Of a stretch of DNA of 64,000 nt, positions 38,684 through 46,027 are shown one piece after another. Below the pieces are notes generated by a model. It did no database searches and was not told the origin of the DNA. It was given only the letters and a program-made list of their open reading frames with translations. The stretch spans positions 1 through 64,000 of the forward strand of contig CANFQX010000009.1 of NCBI GenBank assembly GCA_947449255.1. Reading direction: 5' to 3'. The stretch is from Pseudobdellovibrionaceae bacterium. Lineage in GTDB: Bacteria > Bdellovibrionota > Bdellovibrionia > Bdellovibrionales > Bdellovibrionaceae. How positions within the stretch are numbered: the first letter of the stretch is position 1; every line of letters starts with the position of its first letter. The translations under genes and the position numbers were made by a program.

Positions 38684-38902
38684 GGTTATCTCCTCTAAGA
38701 TCTAACTTTTGAATTTTCCTTAAAATAAGTCAATATGCGGCTGCTGCCTAAAACCTAGACAGCTCTTGCTGCAAAATGATCCACCAGAGTCAATATAGAG
38801 CGAATAGCCCATTTATCAGATGGCATTCTTTTCGCTTAAAAGAAACTGAACCCCTATTTTAGGGGGAGCTTATTTTTACTCATGCCAGGTGGGGTCTTTC
38901 GG

Positions 38903-39805
38903 ATGAAAAATAAAAAAATTGCCTTAGAAAATCCATTTTTTGTTTTTCTTTTTTTGGCTTGTCTTGTTTTGAGCCCATTCATTTCTCACCTTGCTTTCGC
39001 AGACCAAAATAATTCGCAATCCACACAGGCCTCTCAGACTTCAAAAACAACTCTTCCACCGGCGCCTCCAGTGGTGTCTGGATTCTTTCAAATGGCTCGC
39101 TCAACAAACCTCTATGAGCCTAAGGATGGCGGACGCAAAGACGGAGTCGACTACACTTCAAGACTTGTTTTTAAATTGAACGAGAAGCTGAGCCTGCGCT
39201 TTGATGGCGGTTTTTCCCAGGACTTAAAAATGCCCGAGGCTAATGACGTGAATGACATGGCCATTGCTCTGGTCAGGACTCCGATCAGCCTTAGCCGGTT
39301 CCTCATGTTAGGATACAATGTCAGCACGATCGCGCCTCTTTCCAAAGAATCTAGAAACAATCAGGGGTTAAAGTCTGCCTTGGGTGGCGCCCTGTCTTTA
39401 TCTCTGAATCCCGAGTGCACACTTGGCACCCTCGCCGGGGGATTAAACCTTGTTACGGCGATCACCTTGAAAAGAAATTTCCATGAATATGAAACTGCTG
39501 CAGATGGCGCTGTGGGCTCCCAATACACTTCAGCGCAAGTAGCTTCAACGGCTTATCAATTCACCAGTGGTGTTGGTTTATCGATGGAGTATGTTCACAA
39601 AAATGGCATCACCTATCAAAACAACCTGAAGGAAGCTTTTGAGATCTCCGAGGAAATTTCTTATTCACTCACGCAAATGTTCACGGTTGCCCTGGGACAC
39701 ACCAACTCAGGAAATGCCTTAAAATCCAATGGGCAAGATTCAAATTTTGCCTTAGTGAACCCTGAAACTTCAATTTACTATGGCTCTTTAAATTTGACTT
39801 TTTAA
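38903..39805 (+). CDS. hypothetical exported, probable outer-membrane protein
   Basis: A 300-residue protein with a long hydrophobic signal segment (FVFLFLACLVLSPFISH) cleaved near AFA-DQ. A Gln/Ser/Thr/Pro-rich linker follows, then a beta-strand-rich domain (SRLVFKLNEKLSLRFDGGF) ending in SIYYGSLNLTF, a C-terminal Phe consistent with outer-membrane barrel assembly. I recognise no specific family. The frame opens at 38882, but the ATG at 38903 has AGGTGGGG eight bases before it. It is monocistronic. Confidence 0.68.
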   Translation: MKNKKIALENPFFVFLFLACLVLSPFISHLAFADQNNSQSTQASQTSKTTLPPAPPVVSGFFQMARSTNLYEPKDGGRKDGVDYTSRLVFKLNEKLSLRFDGGFSQDLKMPEANDVNDMAIALVRTPISLSRFLMLGYNVSTIAPLSKESRNNQGLKSALGGALSLSLNPECTLGTLAGGLNLVTAITLKRNFHEYETAADGAVGSQYTSAQVASTAYQFTSGVGLSMEYVHKNGITYQNNLKEAFEISEEISYSLTQMFTVALGHTNSGNALKSNGQDSNFALVNPETSIYYGSLNLTF

Positions 39806-40192: not shown

Positions 40193-43100
40193 ATGGCAAA
40201 TCAAAAGCTCATTCACTCAAAGGCCCTAGCTGCTTTAATGTCCATTGTATTGATGGCTGCGGGTTGTACAAAGCAACGAGATCCCTCTTTGCCGGAAGCA
40301 GAGGCTCTCCAAATATTTGCTTTAAGTGAATTTGCAGGGCCAACTAGCCAAGGCTTTACCGTCAGATCAAAACCAATTGAGAAAGATCAAACCGATCTCA
40401 CCAATACAGCATTTCAAGAAAAAGGCTTGGTCGCACTCGACGCCGAACATTCGGCTCTGCCTGAGCGACTTAAATTCATGTTTGCAAATCTTGAAATTTC
40501 AGGTCAAAGCACTGAAAATTATCAAATTGTCTTTGGTGTGGATTCTAAATTTGTAACTATATATAAGGCCGTGAAAAGTCTCGAAACGCTGTCGACCATT
40601 GACCAGCAACTGGCTGTTTCAGCTGACGAAGTGCAATTGGCCATTGATCTGAATAAAGCTAGCGATCAAAATATTAAAAATAACGTCCTGAAGAAAATGG
40701 CTTTAGCTAGGAAAGCTCGAACCACAGCCCTTCAATCGGGCGCAAACCTCAATATCCTTGTCCCCCTTTTTCAATACGAAGTGTTGGGTAAAGGTGTCCT
40801 TGAACGCACAAAAAATGAATTGAAGGAAACTACATCTGCCCTTGGTTTAACAGAAACAGAGTTTAGCAAAGCAACACACATAAAAATAAAAACAAAATCT
40901 GAGGATCGCAAGGATATCACGAGCCCTGAACAAAAAAAGGCCTTGGATCAAATTTTTAAAGCTGAATCAATCGATAATAAAATCACCAAAGCTTCTGATC
41001 TTGAAAAACAATTGAACATCAACATGAAGTTTGTCACGGCTGATTCAACGGTCCTTACAAAGCTTGATGCTGCCGATTTGAAAGTTTTTGAACTCACCAC
41101 AATGGCAAAATTATCTAAAGATGAACAACGACAGGTGACAACCAACAGCGCCAACGGAGAAATTATAAAATGCTCCGACGTGGCTGCGGCCAAAGATCTT
41201 GCCGTTAAAGACAACAACTGTCTTTTGAGGTTGGTCGCAAGAGTTCCCGTCAGTTATAAAAAATTAGCCTTAAACTTAATAGATTCAAAAAACAATTCCA
41301 CCAACACTGTGGAGTTTAGAAATGTATCTAAGAGCGAGTCAAAGGGCCTAGTTGAAATTGTCCAACAAGTTGCCGCCGAACGAGCTCGACCCACCGGAAT
41401 CATGGATCCCATTCGCACCCTTAAAATTTCAGAACTGCAGGGTGAATTCTATTTTCGAAGAACATTCGAGAATGGTTCCAACATGATGATGATTGGAAAA
41501 GCCGGCACCAGTGGGGACATGTCTATTATAAAATTTGAATTTGAAAATGACCGACTTGTTGTGCGAAATCTAAAAGCACTTATTCAGTACGTTGGGCAGG
41601 GCCCCAAGGACAGAGAAGAGCTGATGAGCATTCCTGTGAAATATTTTAATATCGAAAGCACCGATCCTGCAGGTGTTGCACTTCAAGTTCCAAGACTTAT
41701 TGAAGCATCTAAAGATGATGCCCAATATCTTGAGATCGATTGGACGAGAAATACCATTCCCATTTCAAATTCCCCGCTTGCTTTTTTTGATGCCGGTGAA
41801 TGTTGGATGGCGGAGACATCCCAGCAAGTCAGTTACATGGATATGCGACTTTCTAAAGATGGTATGCTAAGTTTCTCTTTGGCAGGTTCGTATACAGTTA
41901 AACCCGAATGCGCCAACCAAAACAGCGTCAGTGAAAATGCACAGTTCAACTATAATGTGATCGAGCGGATCTCTTTTAAAAAAAGAACAGACACGGCAGT
42001 TGAAGACAAGCAGTTCGCACCCAATGTCCCCTTGAGCGCTCAGAGTGCCATGAATTTTGCGATTTTCACAATGGCAGAATCAAACACCGATCCTTCGGTG
42101 CGCCCCGGACGAGAAAACAGCGTCATCAACCGACCGATCATTCATGACTTTCGCAATGGCAAGGTTCTAAATTATTGGGTAGGTGGCTTAGCAGAAACCA
42201 AAGACCCAAACCGACGAACATTGATTGAGGAAGCGGCTAAAGAAGTCGTCGATGAGTGGAATAGCGCTTTTCGCAAAGCCTTCGAGGGCGACAAAACACT
42301 TGAGCGCTCGGGTGACTATATTGTGTTGCACAAAGAAGATGATGCCAGCCGCGGCCACTTGGGTGACCTTGATAAGAATTATCTTTGGTTCATGGATATG
42401 CCCACAGAAAATGGCTTACTTGGTGTGGCTCAATTTGCACCAAATCCTTACTCCGGAAATATTATTGCTAACAATGTGATCGTCTATTCAGGAAATTCAG
42501 AAACTGAAGTTCGCAGCTTTATGGCAAGCTACAAAGAATCTAGAGCTTATGAGAAAATCTTAGAGGCGGCCAAGAATAAAGCGCTGGAAGATTTTCAAAA
42601 ACAAGAGGCTGCTGATAAGGAAGCGGATGCTTTAGAACGCTCTAAATCCAATGCCGCTTCAGCTTATACTAGCGCAACTGTAAGCGAAAAAATGTCCAAA
42701 TTAGCTCCTACTGATAGAGCTCACTTCATAATCAATAAGCACAACTCCTTCATTAAAAAACTGGTTCTTTCTGCACGAGTTCCACTTCTTGATCGCATGT
42801 CATCTAAATATTCGATCGCAAATAGACAAAAGTCAGCTTGGCCAAACAAAATGCTTCGGGGATTGAGTAAGAATCAATTTGAATCTAAGCAGATGTCTGA
42901 GATCAACCTTAAAAACAATTTTGATTACACCAGTAAAATAATAACTGAGGCCCTCTCCGGTGATTTTAAAAATGACCCTCTTATGCTGGAGGCGATCATC
43001 GCTAGAGAGGTTGCAAGATCAAAAAAAGGACTTTCTCCAGAAATTAGGGCCGTGCTCTTGCAAAAAGCACGGATGAATGAAATGTCTGCAAAATTTGATC

Positions 43101-45325
43101 AAAATGCGAAGAAACGTGGCGGATGCTTCATGTATTCTAGAAACGAGTACAATGATAAATTTGTAGAATCTGATTTCAATACTTTATTCAAAAAAGAAAT
43201 TAAAGCCACACTTTTGCATGAAGTAGGACATGCTTTGGGTTTAAGGCATAATTTCAAAGCCTCTTATGATAAGAAAAATTTTAATTTTGCGGGAGAAAAC
43301 ACCAATCGCAACTACACTTCGATTATGGACTATATCGCCTCCCCTGAAATGGAGTATGAAGGTCCTGGAACTTATGACGTTCATGCCCTTCGTGCGATCT
43401 ATACGAACAGGATTGAAGTCAGCGATGCTGTTAAAAACGCAAGTTTTAGCAATATCAATGGAGCGAAGCAGTATACCAGCCGAAACTCCAACACCACGGT
43501 TAACCTTGCTAGCGACAAGTACGTTTCTATGGAAGAAGTTAAATCTCTTCTTGGATTTACTCATTGGTCTGATATGCAAAAAAATGTTGTCGATGCGAGC
43601 AATCTACTTAGACATTATTCTCAATGCCATGATGAACTTGTCGGCGTAGAGCCTGCTTGCCAACTCTATGACGAAGGTGCCTCTGCAACTGAAATTGTAA
43701 AAAATGAAATTCAAAATTACAATCGCAGCTATGCCTTGAGCTATTCTGCGGCAGACCGTATTCATTTTGGATGGAATGAAAAAATAGGTGTTATGCGCCG
43801 AACATTGACCAAATTTAAAAACATTCGGAGTGTCTTGGAAGAAACTTTTTCTATGGCTTTTAATAACTCTGCTCGAAATCAGCAAGAGATTGAAGACTTT
43901 TTATTTGCCACACAAATTGGAGGAGCCTTTTTCCATGAGGTCATCCTCACACCGGACACGAATTTACCATTGGTGAACTCCGAAGTGGAGATCGCAAAGC
44001 GCTTATCCGCATTTGGTTACGTTTTGAATTCGCCAGTACTGGATTCCAAGGGGAAACCAGAGGTCGATGTGAACGGCAAGGCAAAAACAGTTAATACAAA
44101 TGCAGCAAAGCTTCTTGAGGCAAGAAATGTTAATGATGGTAAATATTCAACGCTTGAAGATCGCTTCGATACTTTAGGTATTGGTTTTGACAAACAAATT
44201 GCTCTGAAATTTCTGATGACTGCAACGCCAGTGGTCTTGAATGAGTCGTCAAGTACAGCTTGGTTTAGTTATTTGGAGTTAGAAAAATTTTTCTTCAATA
44301 TTAAAGACCCTCAGAGATCTGCAAATATGATGACGATTTTTGAAATTATGAACAACAATTTAAATGGTGGCTTTTACGATGAAAACCTGGTTTACCACTT
44401 AGTACCATTAAAAATAGAAGTACCAAAGGACCTTCATGATACGGCTATTTTATCATCGCTTGTCGATACAAATCTCTCACGCGAAAAAGGATTTGATGCT
44501 TTTGCTGAATTTTTTAAGGTGGGAACGCTCAAAGGTGGAAAAACTGTCACTGATCGTCCAGTTGTTATGCGAATGGGACAAAACAATAAATCAGCCATGG
44601 GCATTCGCTTTTTTGGTGCAGACAATGCAAAGGGCGGAGGAGCCCTTGTTCGAATTGCCGCAAAAAAACAAATTATAGAAGCTAACCGTGAGCCCCTTAA
44701 GCAGAGACTGCTAGCGATTAACAATGCAGATAATGATATTGCAGCTAAAGCCCTTGAACTCATAAATACGGATCCGCGATTCCGGGGAAAAACTCAGGCT
44801 GAAGTGATTGCAAGTGCTCCAGAGGTTCAGGCACTGATTGCTGCAAGTAATAAAGCTTCCTTGGAGCTAGAAAATTATTTAATTTCATTAAATCAAAATG
44901 AGGCTTTATTTTCAAAAGACGAAATAGCTGTAAATCCAAATTTAGCTCCAAAGATGCAGGTTCTAATGGCGAAGAATTTATACAAAGGCACGATGGGCAC
45001 CCTCGTCGCATTAATCAGTTCCATGGCTGAATTAGATTACAATGAAGATATGATTATTGGCATTCTTCAAGATTTACAAAAAATTGGGTCTCAGTCTAAA
45101 GAATTAGCTAACACTGAGTTTTTGGCTTTGACAGAAGATATCCTTTTCGACCTCTCAAAAAAAATGGCAGTTCAGTTTAAGGGTGGAAAAAAAGTTGAAG
45201 GCAGCATTTTTATGGAAGAGATGGTGGGGAGTAACAATTTAACTGGCAGTTATGTTAATATTATGTCAGTGATCGAGGACCTTGCGAACTACACTTCAAT
45301 ATTGAATCCAGAGTATGTTTATTAG
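40193..45325 (+). CDS. very large zinc metalloprotease (metzincin-type) lipoprotein
   Basis: A 1710-residue lipoprotein with lipidated Cys25 (LMAAGC). The zinc site is HEVGHALGLRH at 1009-1019, the HExxHxxGxxH metzincin form, with a Met-turn SIMDY at 1043-1047. The segment before and after it resembles the zinc-dependent metalloprotease family with DUF5117/DUF4953-like regions, which is usually much shorter. Charged helical stretches around 800-830 (EKILEAAKNKALEDFQKQ) suggest coiled coil. The rest is unassigned. It is probably anchored to the outer membrane, facing either side. A small exported gene follows 27 bases later. Confidence 0.85.
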   Translation: MANQKLIHSKALAALMSIVLMAAGCTKQRDPSLPEAEALQIFALSEFAGPTSQGFTVRSKPIEKDQTDLTNTAFQEKGLVALDAEHSALPERLKFMFANLEISGQSTENYQIVFGVDSKFVTIYKAVKSLETLSTIDQQLAVSADEVQLAIDLNKASDQNIKNNVLKKMALARKARTTALQSGANLNILVPLFQYEVLGKGVLERTKNELKETTSALGLTETEFSKATHIKIKTKSEDRKDITSPEQKKALDQIFKAESIDNKITKASDLEKQLNINMKFVTADSTVLTKLDAADLKVFELTTMAKLSKDEQRQVTTNSANGEIIKCSDVAAAKDLAVKDNNCLLRLVARVPVSYKKLALNLIDSKNNSTNTVEFRNVSKSESKGLVEIVQQVAAERARPTGIMDPIRTLKISELQGEFYFRRTFENGSNMMMIGKAGTSGDMSIIKFEFENDRLVVRNLKALIQYVGQGPKDREELMSIPVKYFNIESTDPAGVALQVPRLIEASKDDAQYLEIDWTRNTIPISNSPLAFFDAGECWMAETSQQVSYMDMRLSKDGMLSFSLAGSYTVKPECANQNSVSENAQFNYNVIERISFKKRTDTAVEDKQFAPNVPLSAQSAMNFAIFTMAESNTDPSVRPGRENSVINRPIIHDFRNGKVLNYWVGGLAETKDPNRRTLIEEAAKEVVDEWNSAFRKAFEGDKTLERSGDYIVLHKEDDASRGHLGDLDKNYLWFMDMPTENGLLGVAQFAPNPYSGNIIANNVIVYSGNSETEVRSFMASYKESRAYEKILEAAKNKALEDFQKQEAADKEADALERSKSNAASAYTSATVSEKMSKLAPTDRAHFIINKHNSFIKKLVLSARVPLLDRMSSKYSIANRQKSAWPNKMLRGLSKNQFESKQMSEINLKNNFDYTSKIITEALSGDFKNDPLMLEAIIAREVARSKKGLSPEIRAVLLQKARMNEMSAKFDQNAKKRGGCFMYSRNEYNDKFVESDFNTLFKKEIKATLLHEVGHALGLRHNFKASYDKKNFNFAGENTNRNYTSIMDYIASPEMEYEGPGTYDVHALRAIYTNRIEVSDAVKNASFSNINGAKQYTSRNSNTTVNLASDKYVSMEEVKSLLGFTHWSDMQKNVVDASNLLRHYSQCHDELVGVEPACQLYDEGASATEIVKNEIQNYNRSYALSYSAADRIHFGWNEKIGVMRRTLTKFKNIRSVLEETFSMAFNNSARNQQEIEDFLFATQIGGAFFHEVILTPDTNLPLVNSEVEIAKRLSAFGYVLNSPVLDSKGKPEVDVNGKAKTVNTNAAKLLEARNVNDGKYSTLEDRFDTLGIGFDKQIALKFLMTATPVVLNESSSTAWFSYLELEKFFFNIKDPQRSANMMTIFEIMNNNLNGGFYDENLVYHLVPLKIEVPKDLHDTAILSSLVDTNLSREKGFDAFAEFFKVGTLKGGKTVTDRPVVMRMGQNNKSAMGIRFFGADNAKGGGALVRIAAKKQIIEANREPLKQRLLAINNADNDIAAKALELINTDPRFRGKTQAEVIASAPEVQALIAASNKASLELENYLISLNQNEALFSKDEIAVNPNLAPKMQVLMAKNLYKGTMGTLVALISSMAELDYNEDMIIGILQDLQKIGSQSKELANTEFLALTEDILFDLSKKMAVQFKGGKKVEGSIFMEEMVGSNNLTGSYVNIMSVIEDLANYTSILNPEYVY

Positions 45326-45352
45326 ATTCACTGCAGTCTGGAGAGATTTAGG

Positions 45353-46027
45353 ATGAAAGTTTTTGTGAAAAAAAATATTTTATTTAATTTGTTAGCAATA
45401 ACAGCATCGATGTCGATTTCTCTGGCGAGCACTGTGAGTTTTGGCGATTGCCTTAACGATTTCCATATTCGCCAAAAATCAGTTCCCCATAATATCAATG
45501 CAGAGGCCCTGAAGGAAATCGATCATCTTGCTCTTATTGGCAATCCCATGGAGGGCTGGCAGAGGGTGAGCGTTTGGGGCGACCCCTATGCGGCAGTTGC
45601 AGCGAAGGTTCTTGCCAGCAAGACCGTATTCCCCGCCTCGTTCTATAAAAAATTGATCGCAACCCATTGGCTCAATATCAACGGTGAAGAGATTGTTAAA
45701 ATAAATTTTTTAGCGACAGCTCAACAACATTTTCGGCAATATGTTGAACTCTTGCATTCTGGTTTTTGGCCCGACTCGGATCAAATATTGCTCAGCTACC
45801 TGACCGCCACAAGAAGCCATCAGTTGCCCGACATCACGGTCTTTGATGCGGCTTGGGATGCCGCAGGTTTTAATTTCATGAGATCATGGCAGTCTTTAAA
45901 TAATCTTCCAGACGAGCGAATTGTTTATCCCACTCAGGCTTGCATGAATATTAGCCCCATGGAGGCAAGAATCATTTTAACCAGAGATTTCTCTGAATTG
46001 CCCTTTAAGTATCTGCTTCAATATTAA
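45353..46027 (+). CDS. hypothetical exported protein next to the metalloprotease
   Basis: A 224-residue protein with a signal peptide (hydrophobic ILFNLLAITASMSISLA, cleavage near SFG). The mature part begins CLNDFHIRQKS and has a second Cys near the end (TQACMNI), so a disulfide is possible. I recognise no family. GGAG precedes the ATG, and the 27-base gap to the metalloprotease gene indicates co-transcription. It may be a chaperone, inhibitor or substrate-presenting partner of the protease; this is inference. Confidence 0.65.
   Translation: MKVFVKKNILFNLLAITASMSISLASTVSFGDCLNDFHIRQKSVPHNINAEALKEIDHLALIGNPMEGWQRVSVWGDPYAAVAAKVLASKTVFPASFYKKLIATHWLNINGEEIVKINFLATAQQHFRQYVELLHSGFWPDSDQILLSYLTATRSHQLPDITVFDAAWDAAGFNFMRSWQSLNNLPDERIVYPTQACMNISPMEARIILTRDFSELPFKYLLQY

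Follow-up and report, generated by a model that had tools for sequence, protein, structure and literature searches.

In the type IX secretion system an outer-membrane barrel holds a protease at the cell surface (the PorV-PorU pair), and for proteases with a role in quality control or maturation of the outer membrane the protein to compare with is BepA. Searches of the open literature returned no name or study for the gene pair described here, no papers on DUF4953, DUF5117 or Bd3133, and none on a metalloprotease, a beta-barrel and a lipoprotein in Bdellovibrionota. The pair lies in a window of 64,000 nucleotides (the whole stretch of DNA that was analysed) from a Pseudobdellovibrionaceae bacterium, and consists of a very long metzincin lipoprotein, F1, and a predicted barrel encoded upstream of it, F0. 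A small exported protein, F14, is encoded downstream. The features considered are the following.

38882..39805, + strand: F0, 307-aa ORF, predicted exported outer-membrane beta-barrel (model, structural matches), conserved upstream of F1
39002..39802, + strand: mature barrel of F0, 267 aa, the modelled part, with the long-loop side better conserved than the short turns
40193..45325, + strand: F1, 1710-aa metzincin lipoprotein (ORF, Pfam, alignment, model)
40256..40267, + strand: lipobox AAGC of F1 (Cys25), read from the sequence
40268..40972, + strand: N1 module of F1, residues 26-260, found alone, without the protease, beside F0 in three loci
42056..42487, + strand: N-terminal part of the metzincin catalytic domain of F1, about residues 622-765, with GDLDxN and NPxSG motifs
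42488..43147, + strand: helical insertion of about 220 residues in F1, located after the last strand and ahead of the active-site helix, with largely low model confidence
43217..43249, + strand: zinc-binding HEVGHALGLRH of F1, residues 1009-1019 (sequence, alignment)
43319..43333, + strand: Met-turn SIMDY of F1, residues 1043-1047 (sequence, alignment)
43625..43660, + strand: Cys pair of F1, C1145 and C1156, a motif shared with shorter PF16313 proteins
43838..45322, + strand: C-terminal region of F1, residues 1216-1710, with no credible family match and a nearly invariant PE near the C-terminus
45353..46027, + strand: F14, 224-aa small exported protein, a lineage-specific neighbour according to the genome surveys

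F1, a long-form envelope metzincin

A first, sequence-only reading had described F1 as a very long lipoprotein with HExxHxxGxxH and SIMDY motifs, and this description holds in full: the ORF has 1710 codons, Cys25 lies in a lipobox (..LMAAGC25) and is invariant in the 19 rows of the family alignment, and the motifs HEVGHALGLRH and SIMDY sit around 60% along the protein. F1 passes the Pfam gathering cut-off for PF16313 'Met-zincin' (37.5 bits versus a curated 24.2, E 2e-9), in an alignment that spans only profile positions 7-62 of 316. Residues H1009, E1010, H1013, G1016, H1019, M1045, D1046 and Y1047 are identical in 19/19 aligned sequences, in such a way that the two motifs that define the metzincin clan, HExxHxxGxxH and the Met-turn, are found throughout the alignment, and the predicted fold is also that of a metzincin.

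The fold was predicted for residues 26-1215 (pLDDT 76.2, pTM 0.59, 21 sequences). The best structural matches of the model were MMP-13 and ADAM8, with Z of 10.9 and 10.2 over 150 and 159 aligned residues, and its best 50 matches include MMP, ADAM, snake-venom, alkaline-protease and fragilysin chains, with a top Z of 10.9. The catalytic-domain fold is thus common to the F1 model and to matrixins and adamalysins (MMP-13, ADAM8, TACE), whereas identity to MMP-13 and ADAM8 is 17% and 14%, F1 is a bacterial lipoprotein, and no further common domain was seen. A plain Foldseek search with the whole 1190-residue model gave nothing at E of 0.001 or less, the weak rows below this threshold being LprG, YceI and lipocalin-like chains, and the F1 sequence had no match among solved structures at E up to 1. 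Given the PF16313 score, the identity of the active-site residues in 19/19 sequences and the structural alignment with MMP-13/ADAM catalytic domains, the zinc motif is not due to chance. From the conserved motifs we infer zinc-dependent proteolysis by F1.

Domain search and structure prediction had been proposed for residues 1-980 and 1100-1710 of F1. The domain search yielded the PF16313 match and the model of residues 26-1215 the metzincin fold; the C-terminal region gave no credible family match in Pfam/NCBIfam at E up to 1. The protein ends in ..NPEYVY (45305-45322), where the PE is nearly invariant across distant homologues. Searches at E up to 1 detected no M48 family, to which proteases of BepA type belong, in Pfam/NCBIfam, and no DUF5117 (PF17148) in Pfam. 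The idea that modules N1, N2 and M of F1 are repeats of one another found no support (hhalign probabilities below 10%). A tandem duplication of N1 at the start of the protease was observed in L050, L083, L085 (F1 N-terminus) and L183:8568-10499.

Comparison with PF16313 proteins of about 700-950 aa (DUF4953) showed that both halves of the catalytic core align with F1 at 99.6-99.7% probability (hhalign against ten shorter members, E 1.3e-25 for the first half and 2e-24 for the second), the common core comprising the zinc motif, the Met-turn and a CxD...PxC motif. Set against the 922-aa member encoded in the same genome (L069), F1 is longer at three places: the part that precedes the catalytic domain by about 350 residues, the stretch from the last aligned strand to the zinc motif by about 180, and the part that follows the catalytic domain by about 230. 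Homology between F1 and the ten shorter members in the region before the catalytic domain was unsupported (hhalign, 1.4% probability). One of the shorter members, L138, matches DUF5117 (PF17148) upstream at 2.9e-21, and this domain is absent from 3/4 shorter members scanned, including that of the window genome, so it does not define the whole PF16313 family.

F1 is, in conclusion, a metzincin of the envelope and a long-form member of a known protease family. The PF16313 ORFs listed for 114 genomes of the phylum (at least 150) comprise 6 below 700 aa, 73 of 700-999 aa and 71 of at least 1000 aa. By these counts, the statement that related proteases are generally far shorter was only half right. 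Some relatives carry a non-canonical zinc motif (HAFGHALGLRH in L113:4178-8296) or one that was not found (L162:4680-8000, L169:1-2865); these proteins are possibly inactive, cut or mis-sequenced.

The predicted upstream barrel F0 and its pairing with F1

The true start of F0 is perhaps at 38903, and its signal peptide was, like this start, judged by eye. The model of the mature protein has 12 strands (pLDDT 79.8) and matches the CymA/OmpG-like fold with Z around 15-16, so that, together with the signal peptide, F0 presents the even strand number and predicted barrel fold of an outer-membrane barrel. The barrel fold is common to F0 and to the CymA/OmpG porins, whereas identity to them is 6-10% with 12 strands modelled in F0, and a channel role of F0 is not implied.

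The two faces of the predicted barrel differ in conservation. The long-loop face shows 2.81 bits per column versus 1.81 for the short turns, and the long loops, with 66 of the 253 labelled residues, account for 15 of the 30 best-conserved positions in the near and in the widest alignments. Long loops were better conserved than short turns in three alignments (p <1e-5), and their advantage over the strands was significant in the near set alone (p 0.006, versus 0.09 and 0.08 in the wider sets). For the orientation of the barrel we assumed that its ends are periplasmic, which places the long loops outward. The surface loops of porins are usually the parts that vary most, so conserved long loops in F0 suggest, under the assumed topology, that this face meets a conserved partner or ligand.

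The position of F0 with respect to F1 was studied in 20 loci from 25 genomes with long-form F1 matches, two of these 25 being cut by contig ends, and an exported protein of about 300 aa of the F0 kind was encoded upstream, on the same strand, in all 20. The gap between both genes is 388 bp in the window; outside the genus Bdellovibrio it ranges from -9 to 27 bp (seven loci), and within the genus one or two genes often lie between them. In several Bdellovibrio genomes the opposite strand carries a TTHB210-like gene (PF18197) between barrel and protease (L035:5657-6388, L044:5827-6597), and these loci also carry a same-strand gene of about 250-265 aa without Pfam match, missing from the window. 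Where both genes share a strand (66 loci), an intervening ORF of at least 90 aa is absent from 54 loci, the gap does not exceed 120 bp in 51 and the genes overlap in 12, in a count based on longest-start ORFs and with some contigs counted twice.

The F0 profile matches 52/59 near genomes, and F0 and F1 are both present in all 24 Bdellovibrio genomes surveyed. At the level of the phylum F0 was found in 69 of the 114 genomes. In this survey, where upstream means on the same strand and within 9 kb, the association depended on the length of the metzincin: among the matches listed, F0 lies upstream of 53 of the 71 ORFs of at least 1000 aa (4 others have it in a different arrangement, and for 14 none was found nearby), of 2 of the 73 ORFs of 700-999 aa (1 more otherwise arranged) and of none of the 6 ORFs below 700 aa. 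Conversely, 55 of 92 F0-profile hits have a PF16313 match downstream among those listed, and the remaining 37 are a mix of unlisted matches, pairs in reversed order, loci at contig ends, lipoproteins with N1 alone, and barrels that are unrelated or stand alone. Barrels without a metzincin beside them were found in L154, L156, L174 to L178, L185, L187, L189 and L190, and in two genomes (G009, G028) both genes are present but apart. Seven genomes (G057, G074, G095, G108, G128, G039, G040) have two complete pairs each, which is not proof of joint duplication. In L191, L192 and L193 the metzincin precedes F0, which indicates that the linkage survived rearrangement, and in L183 the genes are divergent. 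Two large metzincin ORFs of the F1 kind lie close together in Vibrio halioticoli and in a Vibrio sp. (L142:5942-15623, L088:5858-14602), both distant from Bdellovibrionota, with no F0-profile match beside them.

The N-terminal part of F1 can occur beside the barrel on its own. In G024, G032 and the second locus of G025 (L053, L054, L155), F0 is accompanied by a lipoprotein of 243-372 aa that consists of N1 only, and the G032 genome has zero PF16313 matches. Many of the metzincins paired with F0, of around 1100-1200 aa, show no detected N1 module, so either N1 is not the sole contact or it has diverged in them. A lipobox is present in 59/62 F0-paired metzincins of at least 1000 aa (27/28 without N1, 32/34 with N1) and in 3/3 N1-only proteins, versus 6/20 unpaired metzincins below 1000 aa. 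It is also common in unpaired long metzincins (23/34, and 4/5 with N1), so that a lipobox alone is no mark of the pair.

Outside the phylum, six hand-picked proteins encoded upstream of metzincins in Myxococcota, taken together, align with F0 (98.7% probability, E 3.5e-16), and only one of them (L123, E 1.2e-4) is also matched by the F0 profile. From these six proteins we provisionally consider that F0-like barrels may precede some Myxococcota metzincins. Judged from gene neighbourhood, the conserved partner of the long metzincin F1 is the predicted barrel upstream of it.

Possible roles of the pair

These data suggest that F1 has a barrel of its own, which would hold it at the cell surface. 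F0 and F1 would form a two-protein outer-membrane module in which F0 is a small 12-stranded barrel and F1, a metzincin with a complete active site, would be sorted to the outer rather than the inner membrane and carry its lipid anchor in the same membrane as F0. F1 would dock on the barrel at least partly through its N-terminal part, and the barrel would either fix the protease on the outer membrane or display it across this membrane, in such a way that F1 could cut envelope or surface proteins, be they those of the cell itself or those of the prey at the contact site. To such a docked outer-membrane barrel-protease unit we assign a probability of about 0.5.

The sequence-only reading had also proposed an attack on other cells, which is possible, and the available data on this come from Bdellovibrio bacteriovorus HD100. 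The genome G005 carries five GGDEF genes, the number described for HD100, and its protein with GVNEF fits cdgA, Bd3125 (PMC3271064). Counting ORFs onward from it, a lipoprotein whose von Willebrand A match is weak and falls below the Pfam cut-off would correspond to Bd3132, which is reported as a MIDAS protein whose deletion left invaded prey indistinguishable from those of the wild type (PMC11003981). By the same count F0 would be Bd3133 and F1, strictly counted, Bd3136, one off Bd3137; F1 is the sole called ORF with HExxH within that 30 kb, and the HD100 homologue of F1 is most likely Bd3137. PF09864 (lysozyme inhibitor) was also sought as an anchor for the HD100 locus tags and nothing was found.

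Bd3137 is named in the discussion of proteins potentially tied to prey entry in PMC12546842, where 31 proteins obtained from empty killed prey are considered together with genes up at 30 min (source experiment in PMC11003981). F1 could accordingly act as a predation effector that is located on the predator surface, left on or in the prey, and cuts prey envelope proteins during entry, with F0 serving its export or release; the F0 match in every Bdellovibrio genome surveyed is consistent with this. Against it, some attack-phase cells broke in the killed-prey preparation (PMC11003981), so the proteins found there, Bd3137 included, may be carry-over, and 12 of the 31 proteins were reported as not raised at entry in a quantitative proteome (PMC12546842). 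No mention of the Bd3137 tag was found in the open literature outside PMC12546842, the main text of PMC11003981 included. Moreover, the pair is phylum-wide, with related barrels provisionally placed before some Myxococcota metzincins, and a lipoprotein would be expected to remain attached to the predator cell, all of which makes such an effector unlikely.

The pair could instead be a quality-control or maturation protease for the outer membrane of the cell itself, with a BepA-like way of working and an unrelated protease. The presence of F0 across Bdellovibrio and in 69/114 genomes of the phylum, as well as the invariant active site of F1, speak for such a housekeeping role. By contrast, the three loci where the protease part is missing beside barrel and N1, and the 45/114 genomes that show no F0, argue against an essential task of this kind, and we regard it as improbable. 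A role in nutrient uptake, with F0 as a transporter, for example for peptides, fed by the protease, would fit the resemblance of the F0 model to the channels CymA and OmpG; this resemblance says little, since any barrel of this size tends to match such porins, and we hold that role for quite unlikely.

The envelope protease system proposed at the outset was right in its envelope-anchored metzincin and wrong in the partner, for which F14 had been put forward. The F14 ORF, exported and of unknown family as described, begins 27 bases past the F1 stop on the same strand, with an N-terminus that by eye looks like a signal peptide and no family in Pfam/NCBIfam at E up to 1. Relatives of F14 were found in one of the 59 near genomes, that of the window itself, and in 2/290 genomes of the phylum sample, and only in the window do they lie beside a metzincin. 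In the other genome (G120, 46%) the gene is on contig C24 and the sole PF16313 match on C23. The second copy of the window genome (63%, L033:8827-9534) has cytochrome-like, ChaN, nitroreductase and carboxyl methyltransferase genes as neighbours, and zero proteases among the seven ORFs scanned. F14 does not, then, always accompany the protease, the point on which the sequence-only reading had staked the pair, and the surveys of 59 relatives and 290 phylum genomes rule it out as a conserved partner. That F1 acts together with F14, as the 27-bp gap and common strand in the window would suggest, is very improbable given this distribution; F1-F14 is refuted as a conserved system, and F14 may be a strain-specific accessory of F1.

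Comparison of the proposed unit with a known barrel-held protease

Returning to F1 docked on its barrel, the F0-F1 pair can be tested as a candidate for proteolysis of the envelope or of the prey surface, and Bd3137, the most likely identity of the HD100 homologue and an uncharacterised protein, would gain a partner and a location hypothesis. A broader proposal, which we put forward tentatively and with less confidence than the docked unit itself, is a barrel-and-lipoprotein display system of Bdellovibrionota and Myxococcota, in which a small barrel, recognised through its conserved outward loops, would carry a large metzincin on the surface that cuts proteins of other cells or the coat of the predator itself, and in which the same dock would be reused without protease in some lineages. 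If the barrel does display the protease, Gram-negative bacteria would have a further, new means of holding an enzyme on their surface. With respect to PorV-PorU, the likeness of F0-F1 would lie in a protease held by a barrel, whereas the protease class is unrelated.
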